A stretch of 64,000 nucleotides of DNA, taken from assembly GCF_003248355.1 (NCBI RefSeq), contig NZ_QKWY01000001.1, forward strand, positions 310,001-374,000. The letters are read 5' to 3'. Shown here one piece after another: positions 55,415 to 59,319 of the stretch. The translations under genes and the position numbers were made by a program. Under the pieces are notes generated by a model. It searched no databases and was not told the DNA's origin. It saw only the letters and a list, made by a program, of their open reading frames with translations. Numbering within the stretch: position 1 is the first letter of the stretch; each line of letters starts with the position of its first letter. Origin of the DNA: Streptomyces sp. AC1-42W (GTDB lineage Bacteria; Actinomycetota; Actinomycetes; Streptomycetales; Streptomycetaceae).

Positions 55415-56371
55415 CTACACGATGCCGGACCGGATGAGCAGGGCGCCGAGGTGGGTGCGGCTGGTGGCGTCGAGGGTGTGCGTGAGTTTGGCGATGTGGG
55501 CGCGGCAGGTGCGGACGCTGATGCCGAGCTTCTCGGCGGTCTCCTGGTCGGTGCAGCCGTCGGTGAGAAGCCGGGCGATGGTGCGCTGGACGGCGGTCAC
55601 GGGGGTGCCGGGGGCGGTGGTGGGCAGCGGTTCGCTGAACGGTGTGGCACGGTCCCAGAGGACGTCGTACAGCTGCGCCAGATAGCGGACGACCTCTTGG
55701 TGCCGGACCTCCAGGGCGGCACTGCGGTCGGGGGTGGCCGGCAGGTAGGCGACGCGCCGGTCGAAGATGATGAGGCGGTCGACTGCCTGCTCGGCCGTAC
55801 GGACCTGCAGGAGGTCGTCCGGCAGCTGGTTGAAGTAGGACTTGAGGTCGGGGCTGTAGCGCGCGGAGTGCTGGTAGATGTGGCGTACGCGCACGCCCCG
55901 TTCTGCCGTGGGCAGCGTTCCGGCCAAGGCCACCTCGAGGTGCTCGCGCGGGCGCGTGCTGCCGGGCTGGATGGTCAGGATCTCTTCCCCCACCTCGCGC
56001 GCGGAGGCGTTGATGGATGCCTGAATCGTCGATCGTCCCTCCAGCGTGCGGATGGCGGGAGGGGGAGGTTCGTGGTCTGCGGAGGCGAGAGGGACGAGGA
56101 CCCTGGCCAGGGAGTCGATCGCGCGCACCTGTTCCAGGATCTGGCGGGCGAGCGGGTGCAGCAGCTGGGCCAGGGCCGCCGAGGGCGGCAGGGGACGCAG
56201 CCAGAGGCTGTCGCGGGGGTCGGGCGAGAGCAGTGCGCTGTCGGTGAGGCAGGGCGCCGGCACGGCGGCGGACCGGGCGATGCCGCCCTGGTGAAGCGCC
56301 TGGGTGTAGAGACTGACGGCCTTGTCGCACAGTTCGTGGTCGCCGTGGCCGTGTCCGGACGGGGCAGACAT
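55415..56371 (-). CDS. TrmB/LuxR-type regulator, paralogue 1 of 3
   Basis: This 318-residue protein belongs to the same family as the next two genes. It has an N-terminal helical domain (ELCDKAVSLYTQALHQGG, then LRPLPPSAALAQLLHP), a middle PLD-like/TrmB sensor region (EILTIQPGSTRPREHLEVAL, RGVRVRHIYQHSAR, EQAVDRLIIFDRRVAYLPA) and a C-terminal LuxR helix-turn-helix (QETAEKLGISVRTCRAHIAK, LTHTLDATSRTHLGALLI). The ATG at 56371 overlaps the stop of the preceding paralogue (TGATG), so translation is coupled. The ligand is unknown. It is the last gene of the leftward triplet. Confidence 0.8.
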   Translation of the reverse strand: MSAPSGHGHGDHELCDKAVSLYTQALHQGGIARSAAVPAPCLTDSALLSPDPRDSLWLRPLPPSAALAQLLHPLARQILEQVRAIDSLARVLVPLASADHEPPPPAIRTLEGRSTIQASINASAREVGEEILTIQPGSTRPREHLEVALAGTLPTAERGVRVRHIYQHSARYSPDLKSYFNQLPDDLLQVRTAEQAVDRLIIFDRRVAYLPATPDRSAALEVRHQEVVRYLAQLYDVLWDRATPFSEPLPTTAPGTPVTAVQRTIARLLTDGCTDQETAEKLGISVRTCRAHIAKLTHTLDATSRTHLGALLIRSGIV

Positions 56372-57339
56372 CACCGCTCCCATCCCACGATGCCGGACTG
56401 CACGAGCAGCGCACCGAGGTGGGTGCGGCTGGTGGCTTCGAGGGTGTGGGTGAGCTTGGCGATGTGGGCGCGGCAGGTGCGGACGCTGATGCCGAGCTTA
56501 CGGGCCACGATCTGGTCGCTGTCGCCCTCGACGAGCAGACGGGCGATGCTCGCCTGGACAGCGGTGACGGCGGCGGGAGTCGGGGACGGGGCAGTGAGCG
56601 GCTTGGCCTGTGCCCACAGCACCTCGTACGCCTGGCTCAGGTAGCGAACGATCGCGGGATGGCGGATCTCCAGGGCGACGTCGCGTCGGCCGTCGGCCGG
56701 GACGAAGGCCACGGTGTGGTCGAAGACGAAGAGGCGTTCGGCCGTCTGCTCGATGGTGCGCACCTCGATGTGGCCCGGGGGCACATCGGCCAGGTACGCC
56801 TTGATGGCCGGGCTGTGGCGGGCGGGATGCTGATAGATGTGCCGTAGTGTCACGCCGCGCTCCGTCATGTCCAGGGCACGAGCCAGCGCCTTCCTGAGCT
56901 GCTCCACGGGGTGGCTGCCGACGGGCTGGAGGGTCAGGACCTCCTCCCGTGCTCCTTCGGTGGCGTTCTGGATGGCGGCGTCGATCAGCGGGAGGCCCTC
57001 CAGGACCGTGATGGCCAGGTTGGGATCGGTGCTGGCGACGGAGGCCAGCGGAGCCAGCGAGTCGGCGAGGGCGGCGGAGAGCCTGATGCGGTCGTGGATC
57101 TCGCGCGTGACAGGCTGGAGCAGATGGGCGAGAGCTGCGGAGGGCGGCACGGGACGCATCCAGCCGTCGTCCTGGGGGTCGGGGTGTACGAGCGCCAACT
57201 CGACGAGGCAGGGCGCGGGTGCGAGAGCGGAGCGGGGTATGCGGCCTGCCCTCAGCGCCTCGGTGTACGTCCTGACGCCGATGTCGCACAGTTCGAGAGC
57301 ACCGTGCGGGTGGTGCGTTTTGCCCTCGTCATTGCCCAT
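56371..57339 (-). CDS. TrmB/LuxR-type regulator, paralogue 2 of 3
   Basis: The 322-residue protein has the same three-part layout: ELCDIGVRTYTEALRAGRI and HPDPQDDGWMRPVPPSAALA; the sensor region with EEVLTLQPVGSHPVEQLRKA, RGVTLRHIYQHPARHSP and RLFVFDHTVAFVPA; and the helix-turn-helix DQIVARKLGISVRTCRAHIA. It is very similar to paralogue 1 in the C-terminal 70 residues. ATG 57339 has a G-run 6 nt upstream. A 183-bp gap with a long inverted repeat (57391-57398 / 57425-57432) separates it from paralogue 3. Confidence 0.8.
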   Translation of the reverse strand: MGNDEGKTHHPHGALELCDIGVRTYTEALRAGRIPRSALAPAPCLVELALVHPDPQDDGWMRPVPPSAALAHLLQPVTREIHDRIRLSAALADSLAPLASVASTDPNLAITVLEGLPLIDAAIQNATEGAREEVLTLQPVGSHPVEQLRKALARALDMTERGVTLRHIYQHPARHSPAIKAYLADVPPGHIEVRTIEQTAERLFVFDHTVAFVPADGRRDVALEIRHPAIVRYLSQAYEVLWAQAKPLTAPSPTPAAVTAVQASIARLLVEGDSDQIVARKLGISVRTCRAHIAKLTHTLEATSRTHLGALLVQSGIVGWER

Positions 57340-57390
57340 TCGTGACCCCCCACTTTTGGCAATGCAGCAAGATGACGGTGGTGGAAGCCT

Positions 57391-57432
57391 AGTTCCCGCG
57401 ACAGGGTGGACCTGCCGGGGGAGCCGGGAACT
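57391..57432. promoter_or_regulatory. Inverted repeat between paralogues 2 and 3
   Basis: AGTTCCCG (57391-57398) and CGGGAACT (57425-57432) are perfect complements, 26 bp apart, lying 52-93 bp upstream of the paralogue 2 start. Its arms share GTTCC/GGAAC with the site at 58522-58541, so it may be a second operator or a hairpin. Confidence 0.45.
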
Positions 57433-57522
57433 CCCCCGACTGATCAAGGGCGTTGCCATGCTCTCCCCCTTGCGTGGCGCGCCCGCCCGGCCCGGGGGTG
57501 GGGAACTTTGGGGCCGACCCGG

Positions 57523-58506
57523 TCAGGAGTCCTGATCCAGGATTCCTGACCGGGCGATCAGATAGCCGAGCTGGGCGCGGCTGGTGCTGCCGAGCGCGGC
57601 GGACAGCTTGGCCACGTGGGACCGGCAGGTGCGGACGTTCATGCCCAGGCGGCGGGCTATGGCCTCGTCCACGTGCCCCTCTACGAGAAGTTGCGCGATG
57701 GAGCGCTGAACACCGCTGATGCCCTTGGGAGCTGGATCGTACGGCAGCTCGCCCAAGAGGGGGGACGCGCGGCTCCAGAGTTGTTCGAAGACCTTGATCA
57801 AGTACATGACGAGCCCGGGATGGCGCAGTTCCAGGGCTACTTGGTCGTCGCTGCTCGCGGGGATGAACGCGACCGTCCGGTCGAAGACGATCAGTCGGGC
57901 TATGAGCTCTTCAAGGGTGCGTATCTCCACCTTCCCGTCGGCCAGCCGTTCCGCGTAGGCGAGTGTTCCCTGGCTGTGCCGGACGGTGTGCTGGTAGAGC
58001 GTGCGCATGCCGACACCCCGATGGACCACCAGGAGGGCTCGCTCCAGTCCTTCCCGGAGCCGGTCCTCTCCGCGATCGCCCCCCGGCTGGACGGTGAGAA
58101 CCTCCGTGCGGCACTCAGCGGTGGCCAGATCGAGCGCGGCATTGATCCGGTGCTTCCCTTCCAGCACCGTGATGGCGTGTGTGGTGGGAGGGACCTGCGC
58201 GCTGATGTCCATGAATGGCTCGAACGAATCGGCCAGTTCGAGGGAGCGGCGACGGCGTTCCTGGATCTCGCGTTCGATGGGGTGAAGACGCTGGGCCAGC
58301 GCTGCGGCCGGAGGGAGCGGGCGGAGCCAATCGGCGTCGTCGGGGTCCGGGTGCAGAAGGGCGAAGTCCATCAGACAGGGGGCGGAGCTTGCCTCCGCTC
58401 GAGAGATGCGACCGGAGCGCAATGCGCTGGCGTAAAGACGCTGCCCGTCGTCGCAGAGTTCGGTGATCCCATGGCGATGTGTCTCTTCTGAGTCACTTGT
58501 GACCAT
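57523..58506 (-). CDS. TrmB/LuxR-type regulator, paralogue 3 of 3
   Basis: The 327-residue protein shares the layout of paralogues 1 and 2: ELCDDGQRLYASALRSGRIS and LRPLPPAAALAQRLHP; sensor region with TEVLTVQPGGDRGEDRLREG, RGVGMRTLYQHTVRHSQ and RLIVFDRTVAFIPASSDDQ; helix-turn-helix DEAIARRLGMNVRTCRSHVA. ATG 58506 has GGGGGG upstream; an in-frame ATG at 58533 lies inside the inverted repeat of the divergent promoter and is less likely. It is divergent from the GEISW peptide gene by 111 bp and is the best candidate to control it. Confidence 0.8.
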   Translation of the reverse strand: MVTSDSEETHRHGITELCDDGQRLYASALRSGRISRAEASSAPCLMDFALLHPDPDDADWLRPLPPAAALAQRLHPIEREIQERRRRSLELADSFEPFMDISAQVPPTTHAITVLEGKHRINAALDLATAECRTEVLTVQPGGDRGEDRLREGLERALLVVHRGVGMRTLYQHTVRHSQGTLAYAERLADGKVEIRTLEELIARLIVFDRTVAFIPASSDDQVALELRHPGLVMYLIKVFEQLWSRASPLLGELPYDPAPKGISGVQRSIAQLLVEGHVDEAIARRLGMNVRTCRSHVAKLSAALGSTSRAQLGYLIARSGILDQDS

Positions 58507-58521
58507 ATCGGCACCCCCCAG

Positions 58522-58541
58522 GTTCCTGAACATACAGGAAC
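58522..58541. promoter_or_regulatory. Inverted repeat in the divergent promoter of the GEISW peptide gene
   Basis: GTTCCTG (58522-58528), 6 bp, CAGGAAC (58535-58541): perfect 7-bp arms between paralogue 3 and the peptide gene. The size and symmetry suit a dimeric regulator. Confidence 0.65.
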
Positions 58542-58617
58542 ATGATGCATCGACTCAGTGGTGTTCGTGTGCCCAGGTGAGACATCGTCTTAGGAGCGGG
58601 GGAGAAGAATTCCACAA

Positions 58618-58875
58618 GTGAGGACGAAGCTGACTATGTATAAGCGAATGCTTCGCTCGGCGCTTGCCGCCTCGTTCGTCGCTGGCCTGGGCTACGGCGT
58701 GCTGGGTAGCGTCGGCGGGATCAGTACGGGTGCGGAGGCTGCCTCCAGCCTCGGCGAGATCAGCTGGAGCACGCAGGCTGTCAAGCCGGCCGGCGAGATC
58801 AGCTGGCTCTCCCCCGCATTGGCCACACCGGGTGAGATCAGCTGGAACTCGGTGCCGACCCTCGCGGGTGCCTGA
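58618..58875 (+). CDS. Secreted peptide with three GEISW repeats
   Basis: The 85-residue product (79 from the ATG at 58636) has a Sec-type signal: basic MYKRMLRS, a hydrophobic core, and a likely cleavage site after STGAEA (residue 41). The mature part of about 44 residues is almost wholly three units of 13-14 residues, each starting GEISW (residues 46-50, 59-63, 72-76): GEISWSTQAVKPA, GEISWLSPALATP, GEISWNSVPTLAGA. The GEISW codons are nearly identical at DNA level. There is no Cys. The small protein at 58877 follows after 1 nt. Neither start has an ideal ribosome site: GTG 58618 has GGGGGAG 13 nt upstream, ATG 58636 has GAGG 12 nt upstream. The pattern resembles precursors that yield several copies of one signal or core peptide. 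Confidence 0.82.
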   Translation: MRTKLTMYKRMLRSALAASFVAGLGYGVLGSVGGISTGAEAASSLGEISWSTQAVKPAGEISWLSPALATPGEISWNSVPTLAGA

Positions 58876-58876
58876 C

Positions 58877-59197
58877 ATGACCACCCCGCCGGACGACCGG
58901 ACCTTCCGGCGTGAGATGGCGACCGCCTACCGGTCAGGGTGGCATTTCATCGACCTCGTCACGGCTCTGCCCCACCGTGGTGACTCGTTGATGGTCACCC
59001 TGTTCGGCGACCCGGTCGTCGTCGCCCGCGAGGACGACGGAGAGGTCCGTGCCTACCGTTGCCTCCGCAAGCCGCGGGGAGCGCCGCAGCCGGTGCGCTG
59101 CGCCATCCGCTACGACATGATCTTTGTGAATCTCGCACAGCGTGACCACCAGCTGTTCGAACCAGAAGCCATTTCCGCCACCCCCCGCAGTGCCTGA
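58877..59197 (+). CDS. Rieske-fold-like small protein lacking the cluster ligands
   Basis: This 106-residue cytoplasmic protein aligns by eye with the N-terminal part of ring-hydroxylating oxygenase alpha subunits: GWHFIDLVTALPHRGDSLMV, LFGDPVVVAREDDGEVRAYR, and IFVNLAQRDHQLFEP. At the places where the two C-x-H pairs should stand it has CLRKPRG and CAIRYD, so no [2Fe-2S] cluster can be ligated in the normal way. ATG 58877 is 1 nt after the stop of the GEISW peptide gene, so the two are co-translated. It may bind the peptide or a modifying partner. The resemblance is from pattern reading only. Confidence 0.7.
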   Translation: MTTPPDDRTFRREMATAYRSGWHFIDLVTALPHRGDSLMVTLFGDPVVVAREDDGEVRAYRCLRKPRGAPQPVRCAIRYDMIFVNLAQRDHQLFEPEAISATPRSA

Positions 59198-59240
59198 GCG
59201 ATCCCCCGTCGTTCCACGTCGCTCAGACACTTCCCCCACA

Positions 59241-59279
59241 CAACGGCGCCACCGTGACCTGAACACGGTGGCGCCGTTG
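59241..59279. terminator. Terminator after the GEISW operon
   Basis: CAACGGCGCCACCGTG (59241-59256) and its exact complement (59264-59279) give a perfect 16-bp stem with a 7-nt loop, 44 nt after the stop and 40 bp before the convergent PPOX gene. Confidence 0.9.
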
Positions 59280-59319
59280 TGCTGTGCCGGGACGGGAGCG
59301 CCGCGCGCGGCCCGCCCGC

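Follow-up and report, generated by a model that had tools for sequence, protein, structure and literature searches.

Organization and conservation of the cassette

A cassette of small genes was analyzed in a 64,000-nucleotide (nt) stretch of Streptomyces sp. AC1-42W DNA (contig NZ_QKWY01000001.1, positions 310,001 to 374,000; hereafter the window), where it sits between grpE-dnaJ-hspR and clpB in a 7.65-megabase (Mb) genome. Three genes were found to form its invariant core: (i) reg3, encoding a transcriptional regulator; (ii) a divergently oriented gene for a leader-bearing precursor peptide; and (iii) an open reading frame (ORF) for a small Rieske-like protein (Table 1). The analysis makes it likely that the cassette encodes peptide signalling of the Phr/Rap-like kind: the precursor repeats a short [D/E/N]xxW core that differs from species to species and co-varies with the sensor of the adjoining regulator. 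The secreted peptide would thus be a species-specific signal with this regulator as its predicted reader, possibly serving to hold back antibiotic production. A first-pass annotation of the DNA letters had described three tandem paralogous regulators and a small protein co-translated with the precursor; both features were found as described, with all three regulators on the minus strand and the Rieske-like ORF starting 1 nt past the precursor stop codon.

Table 1. Features of the cassette in the window and candidate peptide ORFs at other loci of the same genome (L159 to L161, in the coordinates of each locus)
Feature	Coordinates	Strand	Basis
Precursor gene, 79 amino acids (aa); basic n-region, hydrophobic leader, mature part with three EISW units	58636..58875	+	sequence, alignment
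Predicted signal copy 1, EISWS	58756..58770	+	repeat analysis
Predicted signal copy 2, EISWL	58795..58809	+	repeat analysis
Predicted signal copy 3, EISWN	58834..58848	+	repeat analysis
reg3, predicted receptor/transcription factor, 327 aa; TrmB-like/phospholipase D (PLD)-like sensor and C-terminal LuxR-type helix-turn-helix (HTH)	57523..58506	-	
reg2, paralogous regulator, optional	56371..57459	-	
reg1, paralogous regulator, optional	55415..56383	-	
Rieske-fold small protein, degenerate, 106 aa, without [2Fe-2S] ligands	58877..59197	+	
Predicted operator, inverted repeat GTTCCTG-N6-CAGGAAC; right half runs on into conserved CAGGAACATGATG	58522..58541	.	
Predicted terminator without T run; perfect hairpin with 18-nt arms and a 7-nt loop where two 3' ends converge	59239..59281	.	
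Candidate peptide ORF, locus L159	2691..2891	+	
Candidate peptide ORF, locus L160	1264..1461	+	
Candidate peptide ORF, locus L161	1058..822	-	

The Rieske-like ORF was used as a marker for the cassette and matched 256 of 295 sampled Streptomyces genomes at an expectation value (E) of 1e-3, with weak matches in a few cases. An order-level sample of 119 genomes from five genera contained the ORF in 83; these all belonged to a single genus, and none of the four other genera had a match at E 1e-8. Loci were read from 113 of the 256 matching genomes and from 25 named contigs, giving 155 rows (17 genomes were entered twice) that were reduced to 131 distinct loci by merging those identical in precursor and reg3. 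These loci represent the better-scoring part of the match list; four divergent loci were added afterwards (135 distinct in all). Rows were chosen by the Rieske-like gene or the precursor, and reg3 was present in all 155. A co-loss test included 18 genomes, of which five had a poor Rieske-like match and 13 came from the 39 that had none; reg3 was absent at E 1e-60 from 14 of the 18, the other four being the divergent loci. Thus, the co-occurrence of the peptide cassette with the regulator that had been expected at the outset was upheld.

The surroundings of the cassette were likewise conserved. The clpB gene adjoins 128 of the 131 distinct loci, and synteny was kept in 25 loci from named Streptomyces contigs that were found by precursor alignment, with one short contig (L012) covering the clpB side only. 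In all 131 loci the reg3 match begins 88 to 154 nt from the precursor ATG on the opposite strand, while the precursor and Rieske-like ORFs overlap by 4 nt in 73 loci and are separated by 1 nt in 36. Regulator number was variable: counting only copies aligned to reg3 over more than 150 residues, 24 loci (L001 to L025 without L012) had one regulator in 11 cases, two in eight, three in two, four in two, and five in one.

The precursor and its repeated core

The precursor gene most likely starts at ATG 58636 rather than at GTG 58618 (85 aa), the start that had been proposed initially. A conserved GTGAGGAC/T box was identified in 103 of the 131 loci and is probably the ribosome-binding region, since GTG and ATG lie in different frames in three of these. 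Every one of the 131 precursors combines a basic n-region with a hydrophobic stretch of 15 or more residues, which would suit a putative Sec-type signal. Their median length is 73 aa (range 53 to 150), with the 15 precursors above 100 aa being repeat-rich.

In the window, three copies of the repeat begin at 58753, 58792, and 58831, a spacing of 39 and 39 nt that corresponds to 13-residue units; the EISW codons are identical across the three copies, and the spacer codons vary. One guessed codon spelling of GEISW gave no match in the same genome, the real codons being different. The first-pass annotation had read the repeats as GEISW units of 13 to 14 residues, of which the 13-residue periodicity and the shared EISW codons stand, whereas the conserved unit is narrower, [DEN]xxW(x), and does not include the glycine. 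When copies were compared position by position, G preceded the core in only 36%, and it was not counted as part of the unit because the between-copy identity falls to 0.38 at position -4, just before the core. Identity within the core is 1.00, 0.98, 0.97, and 1.00 (the first and last positions being constrained by the search pattern and the middle two free), followed by 0.70 and 0.38. Upstream of these copies, GGIST at 58714 to 58728 aligns with a GEISW copy of relatives and appears to be a decayed first repeat that has lost its Trp.

The [DEN]xxW core was detected in 131 of 131 distinct loci at one to 11 copies each, and the four divergent loci, which have different leaders, all encode a C-terminal DPTWG or DPAWD. 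Two findings that had been named as grounds for abandoning the peptide proposal, namely homologues without the repeat motif and assignment to a known family, were therefore not encountered, as the precursor had no meaningful family match in Pfam or NCBIfam. A search of the open-access literature also turned up no description of the system among the papers listed; subscription papers lay mostly outside this search, so absence from print is unproven. At least two identical [DEN]xxW cores were observed in 101 precursors compared with 0.1 expected from shuffled mature residues. A single middle dipeptide is used throughout in 99 of the 105 multi-copy precursors, and this dipeptide agrees in 737 of 747 within-precursor copy pairs versus 5.2% of random between-precursor draws. 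Across the 131 loci, 36 dominant core types were distinguished, including DIGW, EISW, EPSW, DSTW, DTVW, DSKW, DITW, and NSSW. Tandem units with homogenised sequence could also belong to a secreted structural or adhesive repeat protein, with the regulators merely setting its expression. We find this scarcely credible: conservation ends at the borders of the four-residue core, the core type tracks the sensor of the regulator (see below), and 26 of the 131 precursors carry a single copy, with the pentamer forming the last five residues in 16 of these and lying internally in 10.

Co-variation of core type with the reg3 sensor

Core type was found to track the sensor of reg3 far more than its HTH, the Rieske-like protein, or the genome. 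For the 113 loci in which all four genes were present, the partial Mantel correlation between motif and reg3 given clpB was 0.617, a value reached in 0 of 500 permutations; by domain, it was 0.628 for the sensor part and 0.225 for the HTH. After removal of reg3, the distances of clpB and of the Rieske-like protein correlated with the motif at -0.09 and -0.08, respectively. Among pairs of loci that differ by less than 3% in clpB, the reg3 difference was 4% for the 20 pairs that share a motif and 23.8% for the 31 that do not, with the Rieske-like protein differing by 1.4% and 2.3%, respectively. One such pair (L023 and L034) differs by 0.4% in clpB, 0% in the Rieske-like protein, and 32% in reg3, and encodes DIGW versus DLAW; the L034 precursor is mixed, with DLAW and DVGW. 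The number of motif changes required was 37 on the reg3 tree, compared with 65 on the clpB tree, 66 on the Rieske-like plus PPOX tree, and 53 on the reg3 HTH tree, where 30 is the minimum for 31 states. In windows along reg3, the partial correlation peaks at residues 141-160, 201-220, and 241-260, versus 0.25-0.29 at 21-60 and 0.03-0.05 at 281-320.

Individual residue columns were compared across 128 loci. Receptor residue 136 follows residue 2 of the signal, being V with I (37/37), M with S (36/36), L with P (21/21), and V with T (20/21), L (8/8), or V (5/5). Its normalised information is 0.97, and the best of 107 control columns from clpB and the Rieske-like protein reaches 0.83; for signal residue 1, column 151 scores 0.72 versus a control maximum of 0.34. 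The mean z of HTH versus sensor columns was -0.01 versus 1.79 for signal residue 1 and 0.67 versus 1.44 for signal residue 3. Independent contrasts were used, and the effect of clade was thereby removed: on the genome tree, 19 changes were counted in the S/T state of signal residue 2, and residue 136 shifts in the same direction in 7 of the 7 independent contrasts with support (p 0.016). When the same scan was run over 142 variable reg3 columns, only residue 136 exceeded 5 of 7, with the best HTH column at 3.15. For E versus not-E at signal residue 1, columns 146, 151, and 219 were concordant in roughly 9.9, 9, and 7.8 of 10 contrasts, with none in the opposite direction, a descriptive result as the residue groups were picked after the data had been seen. 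Position 151 is R in six of seven EISW receptors and S in 28 of 31 DIxW receptors.

An alternative explanation is that strains exchange the cassette as one linked block for unrelated reasons, the co-evolution being only apparent from adjacency. Precursor and reg3 are divergent neighbours at the short distances given above, and near-identical genomes do carry different reg3-precursor alleles beside nearly the same Rieske-like protein. Linkage of this kind would nonetheless be an improbable account of the data, since the signal follows the sensor over the HTH, peaks at the three internal windows and not at residues 21-60 (though residues 1-20 correlate), and is tracked at position 2 by residue 136 alone of the 142 columns.

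Fold and domains of the regulators

The start of reg3 is most likely ATG 58506, from which its 327 aa are counted, and not 58533, because a conserved promoter element overlaps the latter. Its AlphaFold model has a mean predicted local distance difference test score (pLDDT) of 82 and a predicted template modelling score (pTM) of 0.49, by which the modelled domains are credible and their arrangement is uncertain. When the part before the LuxR-type HTH was compared by Foldseek, the top eight matches were TrmBL2 chains (5bpd, E 4e-14), with the TrmB sugar-binding domain 2f5t at rank 20 (E 3e-6) and phospholipase-D-family proteins also matched. The Pfam GerE family was detected above cut-off in reg1 and reg2, and in reg3 at 18.9 bits (below the cut-off of 23.5) at the matching C-terminal position. 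DUF7436 (in two of the three regulators) and TbsP_N gave matches below cut-off, and no tetratricopeptide repeat (TPR) family was found in the regulators by Pfam at E up to 1.

All three regulators had been put forward as candidate readers of the peptide. Co-variation supports this role for reg3, while reg1 and reg2 are optional paralogues, and the proposal that all three are receptors was found to be unsupported: reg2 distance follows the motif weakly (0.157 for the same and 0.200 for different motifs; six and nine pairs) compared with reg3 (0.074 and 0.223). The optional paralogues may be receptors whose local peptide was lost or never present.

Promoter region and predicted terminator

The perfect inverted repeat with 7-nt arms and a 6-nt spacer that had been described in the shared promoter was located exactly as claimed (Table 1). 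The element CAGGAACATGATG was found upstream of 129 of the 131 precursors, and an inverted repeat TCCTG-N6-CAGGA upstream of 95, with 98 such repeats in the 1.18 Mb of loci read. This placement suggests that the window repeat is a putative autoregulatory operator. In the same genome the longer operator form occurs once, plus one further site with three mismatches. Within the inverted repeat, GAACAT is repeated 10 base pairs apart (58528 to 58543); this direct repeat of one helical turn could be the true regulator site. The perfect terminator that was thought to close the operon is confirmed as a hairpin with perfect arms, but no T run follows it.

The Rieske-like partner protein

The product of the Rieske-like ORF is similar to the alpha subunits of ring-hydroxylating dioxygenases in their N-terminal part. 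It matched the 3NT oxygenase 5xbp (E 2e-5), and the best Foldseek match had an E of 1.5e-3, with none below 0.001. The protein aligns with the N-terminal region of the alpha subunits but has neither the cluster ligands nor the catalytic domain; the CxH...CxxH ligands were found in none of the 131 homologues, and a redox Rieske enzyme was rejected on this ground. It may act as a non-redox accessory. The protein is much better conserved than the precursor despite the loss of all cluster ligands, and SVEN_3427 of S. venezuelae is a homologue.

These features bear on whether the cassette makes a ribosomally synthesized and post-translationally modified peptide (RiPP). Such a product might be antimicrobial; the Rieske-like protein would then modify it, and the regulators would control the pathway. 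Some RiPPs have repeat-bearing leader-core precursors, and the Rieske-like gene is co-translated with the precursor. We regard this explanation as very improbable, given that the cluster ligands are lost throughout, that 106 aa leave no room for a catalytic domain, that the cassette holds no other modifying enzyme or transporter (only regulators, precursor, and the degenerate Rieske-like protein), and that Cys occurs anywhere in only 11 of 131 precursors. Of the initial proposal of a multi-copy peptide that is cut or modified and read by a neighbouring regulator, the signalling part is supported by motif conservation and co-occurrence, and nothing was found pointing to modification of the RiPP type.

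A possible wider family of regulator and candidate peptide pairs

Six further regulators of this type, 27 to 40% identical, were identified outside the cassette in the same genome. Three of them adjoin a small leader-bearing ORF, the products of which end in DDRWGV (L159), DLGWQ (L160), and DFGWQ (L161); no peptide was found beside the distant paralogues L162 to L164. A search with the L160 regulator matched 36 of 81 Streptomyces genomes at E 1e-50, and 14 of 29 fetched L160-type loci have a candidate ORF, with 13 of the 14 ending in WQ. In a class-level sample of 148 genomes from 81 genera, reg3 had matches in 49 genomes, which represent 22 genera (E 1e-12). Among 20 loci read from this sample (L241 to L260), six had a candidate peptide, five from one non-Streptomyces family (f28) and one from Streptomyces. 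In the five f28 loci (L242, L243, L244, L245, and L249) the DxxW core comes straight after an AxA sequence, so that cleavage by signal peptidase could generate the N-terminal end of the signal. The candidate criteria matched one of 111 control pieces, all of Streptomyces DNA, with the after-AxA criterion added once peptides had been seen. A looser pattern applied to 15 misses gave four likely candidates, none of them counted (L222 2749-3006, L225 2751-2936, L212 666-508, and L216 811-602), which adjoin paralogous regulators and have repeated SINWD (residue 1 = S) or a C-terminal SMGWQ or DLTWGG; L223 was unclear, and the others were judged to be chance.

The probable Streptomyces coelicolor counterpart

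According to the passages available from the respective papers, clpB and hspR of S. coelicolor are SCO3661 and SCO3668 (PMC2631018), and SCO3665 and SCO3666 are LuxR-family proteins of 327 and 394 aa (PMC3282765). The comparison was made with locus L133, which shares 99% identity with S. violaceoruber in the Rieske-like protein and encodes a precursor with a single C-terminal DSKWD. From the clpB side, L133 has reg3, then a regulator of 327 aa in the same orientation, and then a 394-aa regulator on the opposite strand. Because this order and these lengths fit SCO3665 and SCO3666, reg3 would correspond to SCO3664. Mutants reported to make over 50-fold more actinorhodin include one with a transposon insertion in SCO3664, and the paper lists a complementation plasmid (PMC6585502); 12 of 16 such mutants were complemented, the passages available not stating whether SCO3664 was included (PMC6585502). 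By gene order, gene lengths, and what this one paper reports in those passages, the regulator would restrain actinorhodin production. SCO2686, a 338-aa LuxR-family protein (PMC3282765), is also listed there as an actinorhodin downmodulator (PMC6585502).

Proposed signalling mechanism

The reading of the cassette as a peptide signalling system suggests the following sequence of events. The divergent promoter would be transcribed, and the precursor and then the Rieske-like protein would be made by translational coupling, as the layout implies. The precursor is predicted to be exported through its hydrophobic leader, and secreted peptidases may cut at the alanine/proline-rich spacers to release a peptide of about five residues. 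The peptide would re-enter cells, perhaps via an oligopeptide permease, and is predicted from the co-variation to bind the TrmB/PLD-like sensor of reg3, where residue 136, and perhaps 146 and 151, would set specificity. Binding may then alter the attachment of reg3 to DNA at the putative operator (autoregulation) and at antibiotic-related targets.

Instead of passing between cells, the peptide might act on reg3 inside the producing cell or at the membrane, as an anti- or co-regulator or a cleaved envelope-stress sensor; identical co-variation would be expected, the leader could serve as a membrane anchor, and the cassette adjoins heat-shock genes in 25 loci, as far as the contigs extend. We consider this unlikely. 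A repeated short core with free C-terminal copies fits a released peptide; the core follows AxA, typical of signal-peptidase cleavage, in the five loci of another family; and core type switches between near-identical genomes. Such switching is typical of intercellular pherotypes.

Several observations weigh against the signalling interpretation as a whole. Regarding the precursor, the motif is internal in 10 of the 26 single-copy cases, and dipeptides are mixed in 6 of the 105 multi-copy cases. Regarding co-variation, (i) precursor and reg3 are adjacent, and co-inheritance makes part of the correlation; (ii) a correlation is likewise seen for reg3 residues 1-20 (partial 0.43); (iii) the control column that reaches 0.83 does so for signal position 2, which follows deep clades; (iv) the mean z for signal residue 2 is nearly equal in HTH (0.70) and sensor (0.85), a clade effect; and (v) the contrasts at columns 146, 151, and 219 are descriptive. 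The pTM leaves the domain arrangement of reg3 uncertain, the operator search of the same genome for a regulon gave the one mismatched site only, and SCO3664 was matched by gene order and lengths rather than by its sequence. Finally, the candidate-peptide criteria gave nothing at 3 of 6 paralogue loci in this genome, 15 of 29 in other Streptomyces, and 14 of 20 in the class-level sample.

A broader proposal, to which we give about an even chance, is that the cassette belongs to an actinomycete-wide pheromone family. It would combine a receptor class of TrmB/PLD fold and LuxR-type HTH not known to bind peptides, a species-specific [DEN]xxW pentapeptide at a core locus of Streptomyces next to dnaK-hspR-clpB, several paralogous channels per genome, and a core channel that restrains antibiotic biosynthesis (in S. 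coelicolor via SCO3664). The system would bear on how a Streptomyces colony senses its own kind and times antibiotic production. The 36 predicted core types can be read straight from genome sequence, and the apparent specificity code of signal residue 2 versus receptor residue 136 is open to single mutations. If the proposal is true, short synthetic peptides could be used to start or stop antibiotic production in individual species.

Comparison with known systems

The cassette is like the RRNPP systems (Rap-Phr, PlcR-PapR, NprR-NprX, Rgg-SHP, and AimR-AimP), which likewise place a small leader-bearing propeptide beside a receptor of 250-500 aa. In systems such as Phr and PapR, the short linear signal often lies at the propeptide C-terminus, and allelic diversity is matched to the receptor. 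The criteria given for RRNPP, in the passages available, are a propeptide of 10-100 aa, a Sec-type signal, a receptor of 250-500 aa with TPR, and adjacent genes (PMC10075063). Propeptide size (by its median), receptor length (327 aa), and gene adjacency (131/131) are found here. RRNPP receptors have TPR, whereas reg3 instead has a TrmB/PLD-like sensor and a LuxR-type HTH, and for this reason the cassette was not filed as RRNPP. The hosts also differ, being Bacillota for RRNPP and Actinomycetota for the cassette, with its [DEN]xxW signal.

Archaeal TrmB/TrmBL regulators are like reg3 in the predicted fold before the LuxR-type HTH. Known TrmB ligands are sugars, and structure 2f5t is titled as a sugar-binding domain; reg3 differs in that its main DNA-binding domain is the C-terminal LuxR-type HTH and its predicted ligand is a peptide. 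The yeast alpha-factor precursor has several signal copies with spacers that are trimmed away, and it resembles the cassette precursor in layout, with a core of four to five residues here and no homology claimed. Gamma-butyrolactones (ScbR/ArpA type) are enzyme-made lactones with TetR-family receptors, unlike the cassette, where the signal would be a gene-encoded peptide and the predicted receptor is TrmB-LuxR. The passages available from a 2026 review name gamma-butyrolactones for Streptomyces, where this signalling is similarly widespread and tied to antibiotic production (PMC13220807). In the available parts of other papers, Actinomycetota signals are described as typically enzyme-made small molecules, with linear gene-encoded peptides and intracellular receptors as a theme of the Bacillota (PMC10075063), and cyclic or modified peptides in actinobacteria are also mentioned (PMC4748050).

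Overall, signal motif, receptor fold, and phylum are jointly unlike every peptide signalling system known to us, and the combination would be categorically new, depending on the predicted binding of the peptide by reg3. The same logic as Bacillota peptide signalling has apparently been assembled from unrelated parts at a widespread Streptomyces locus.

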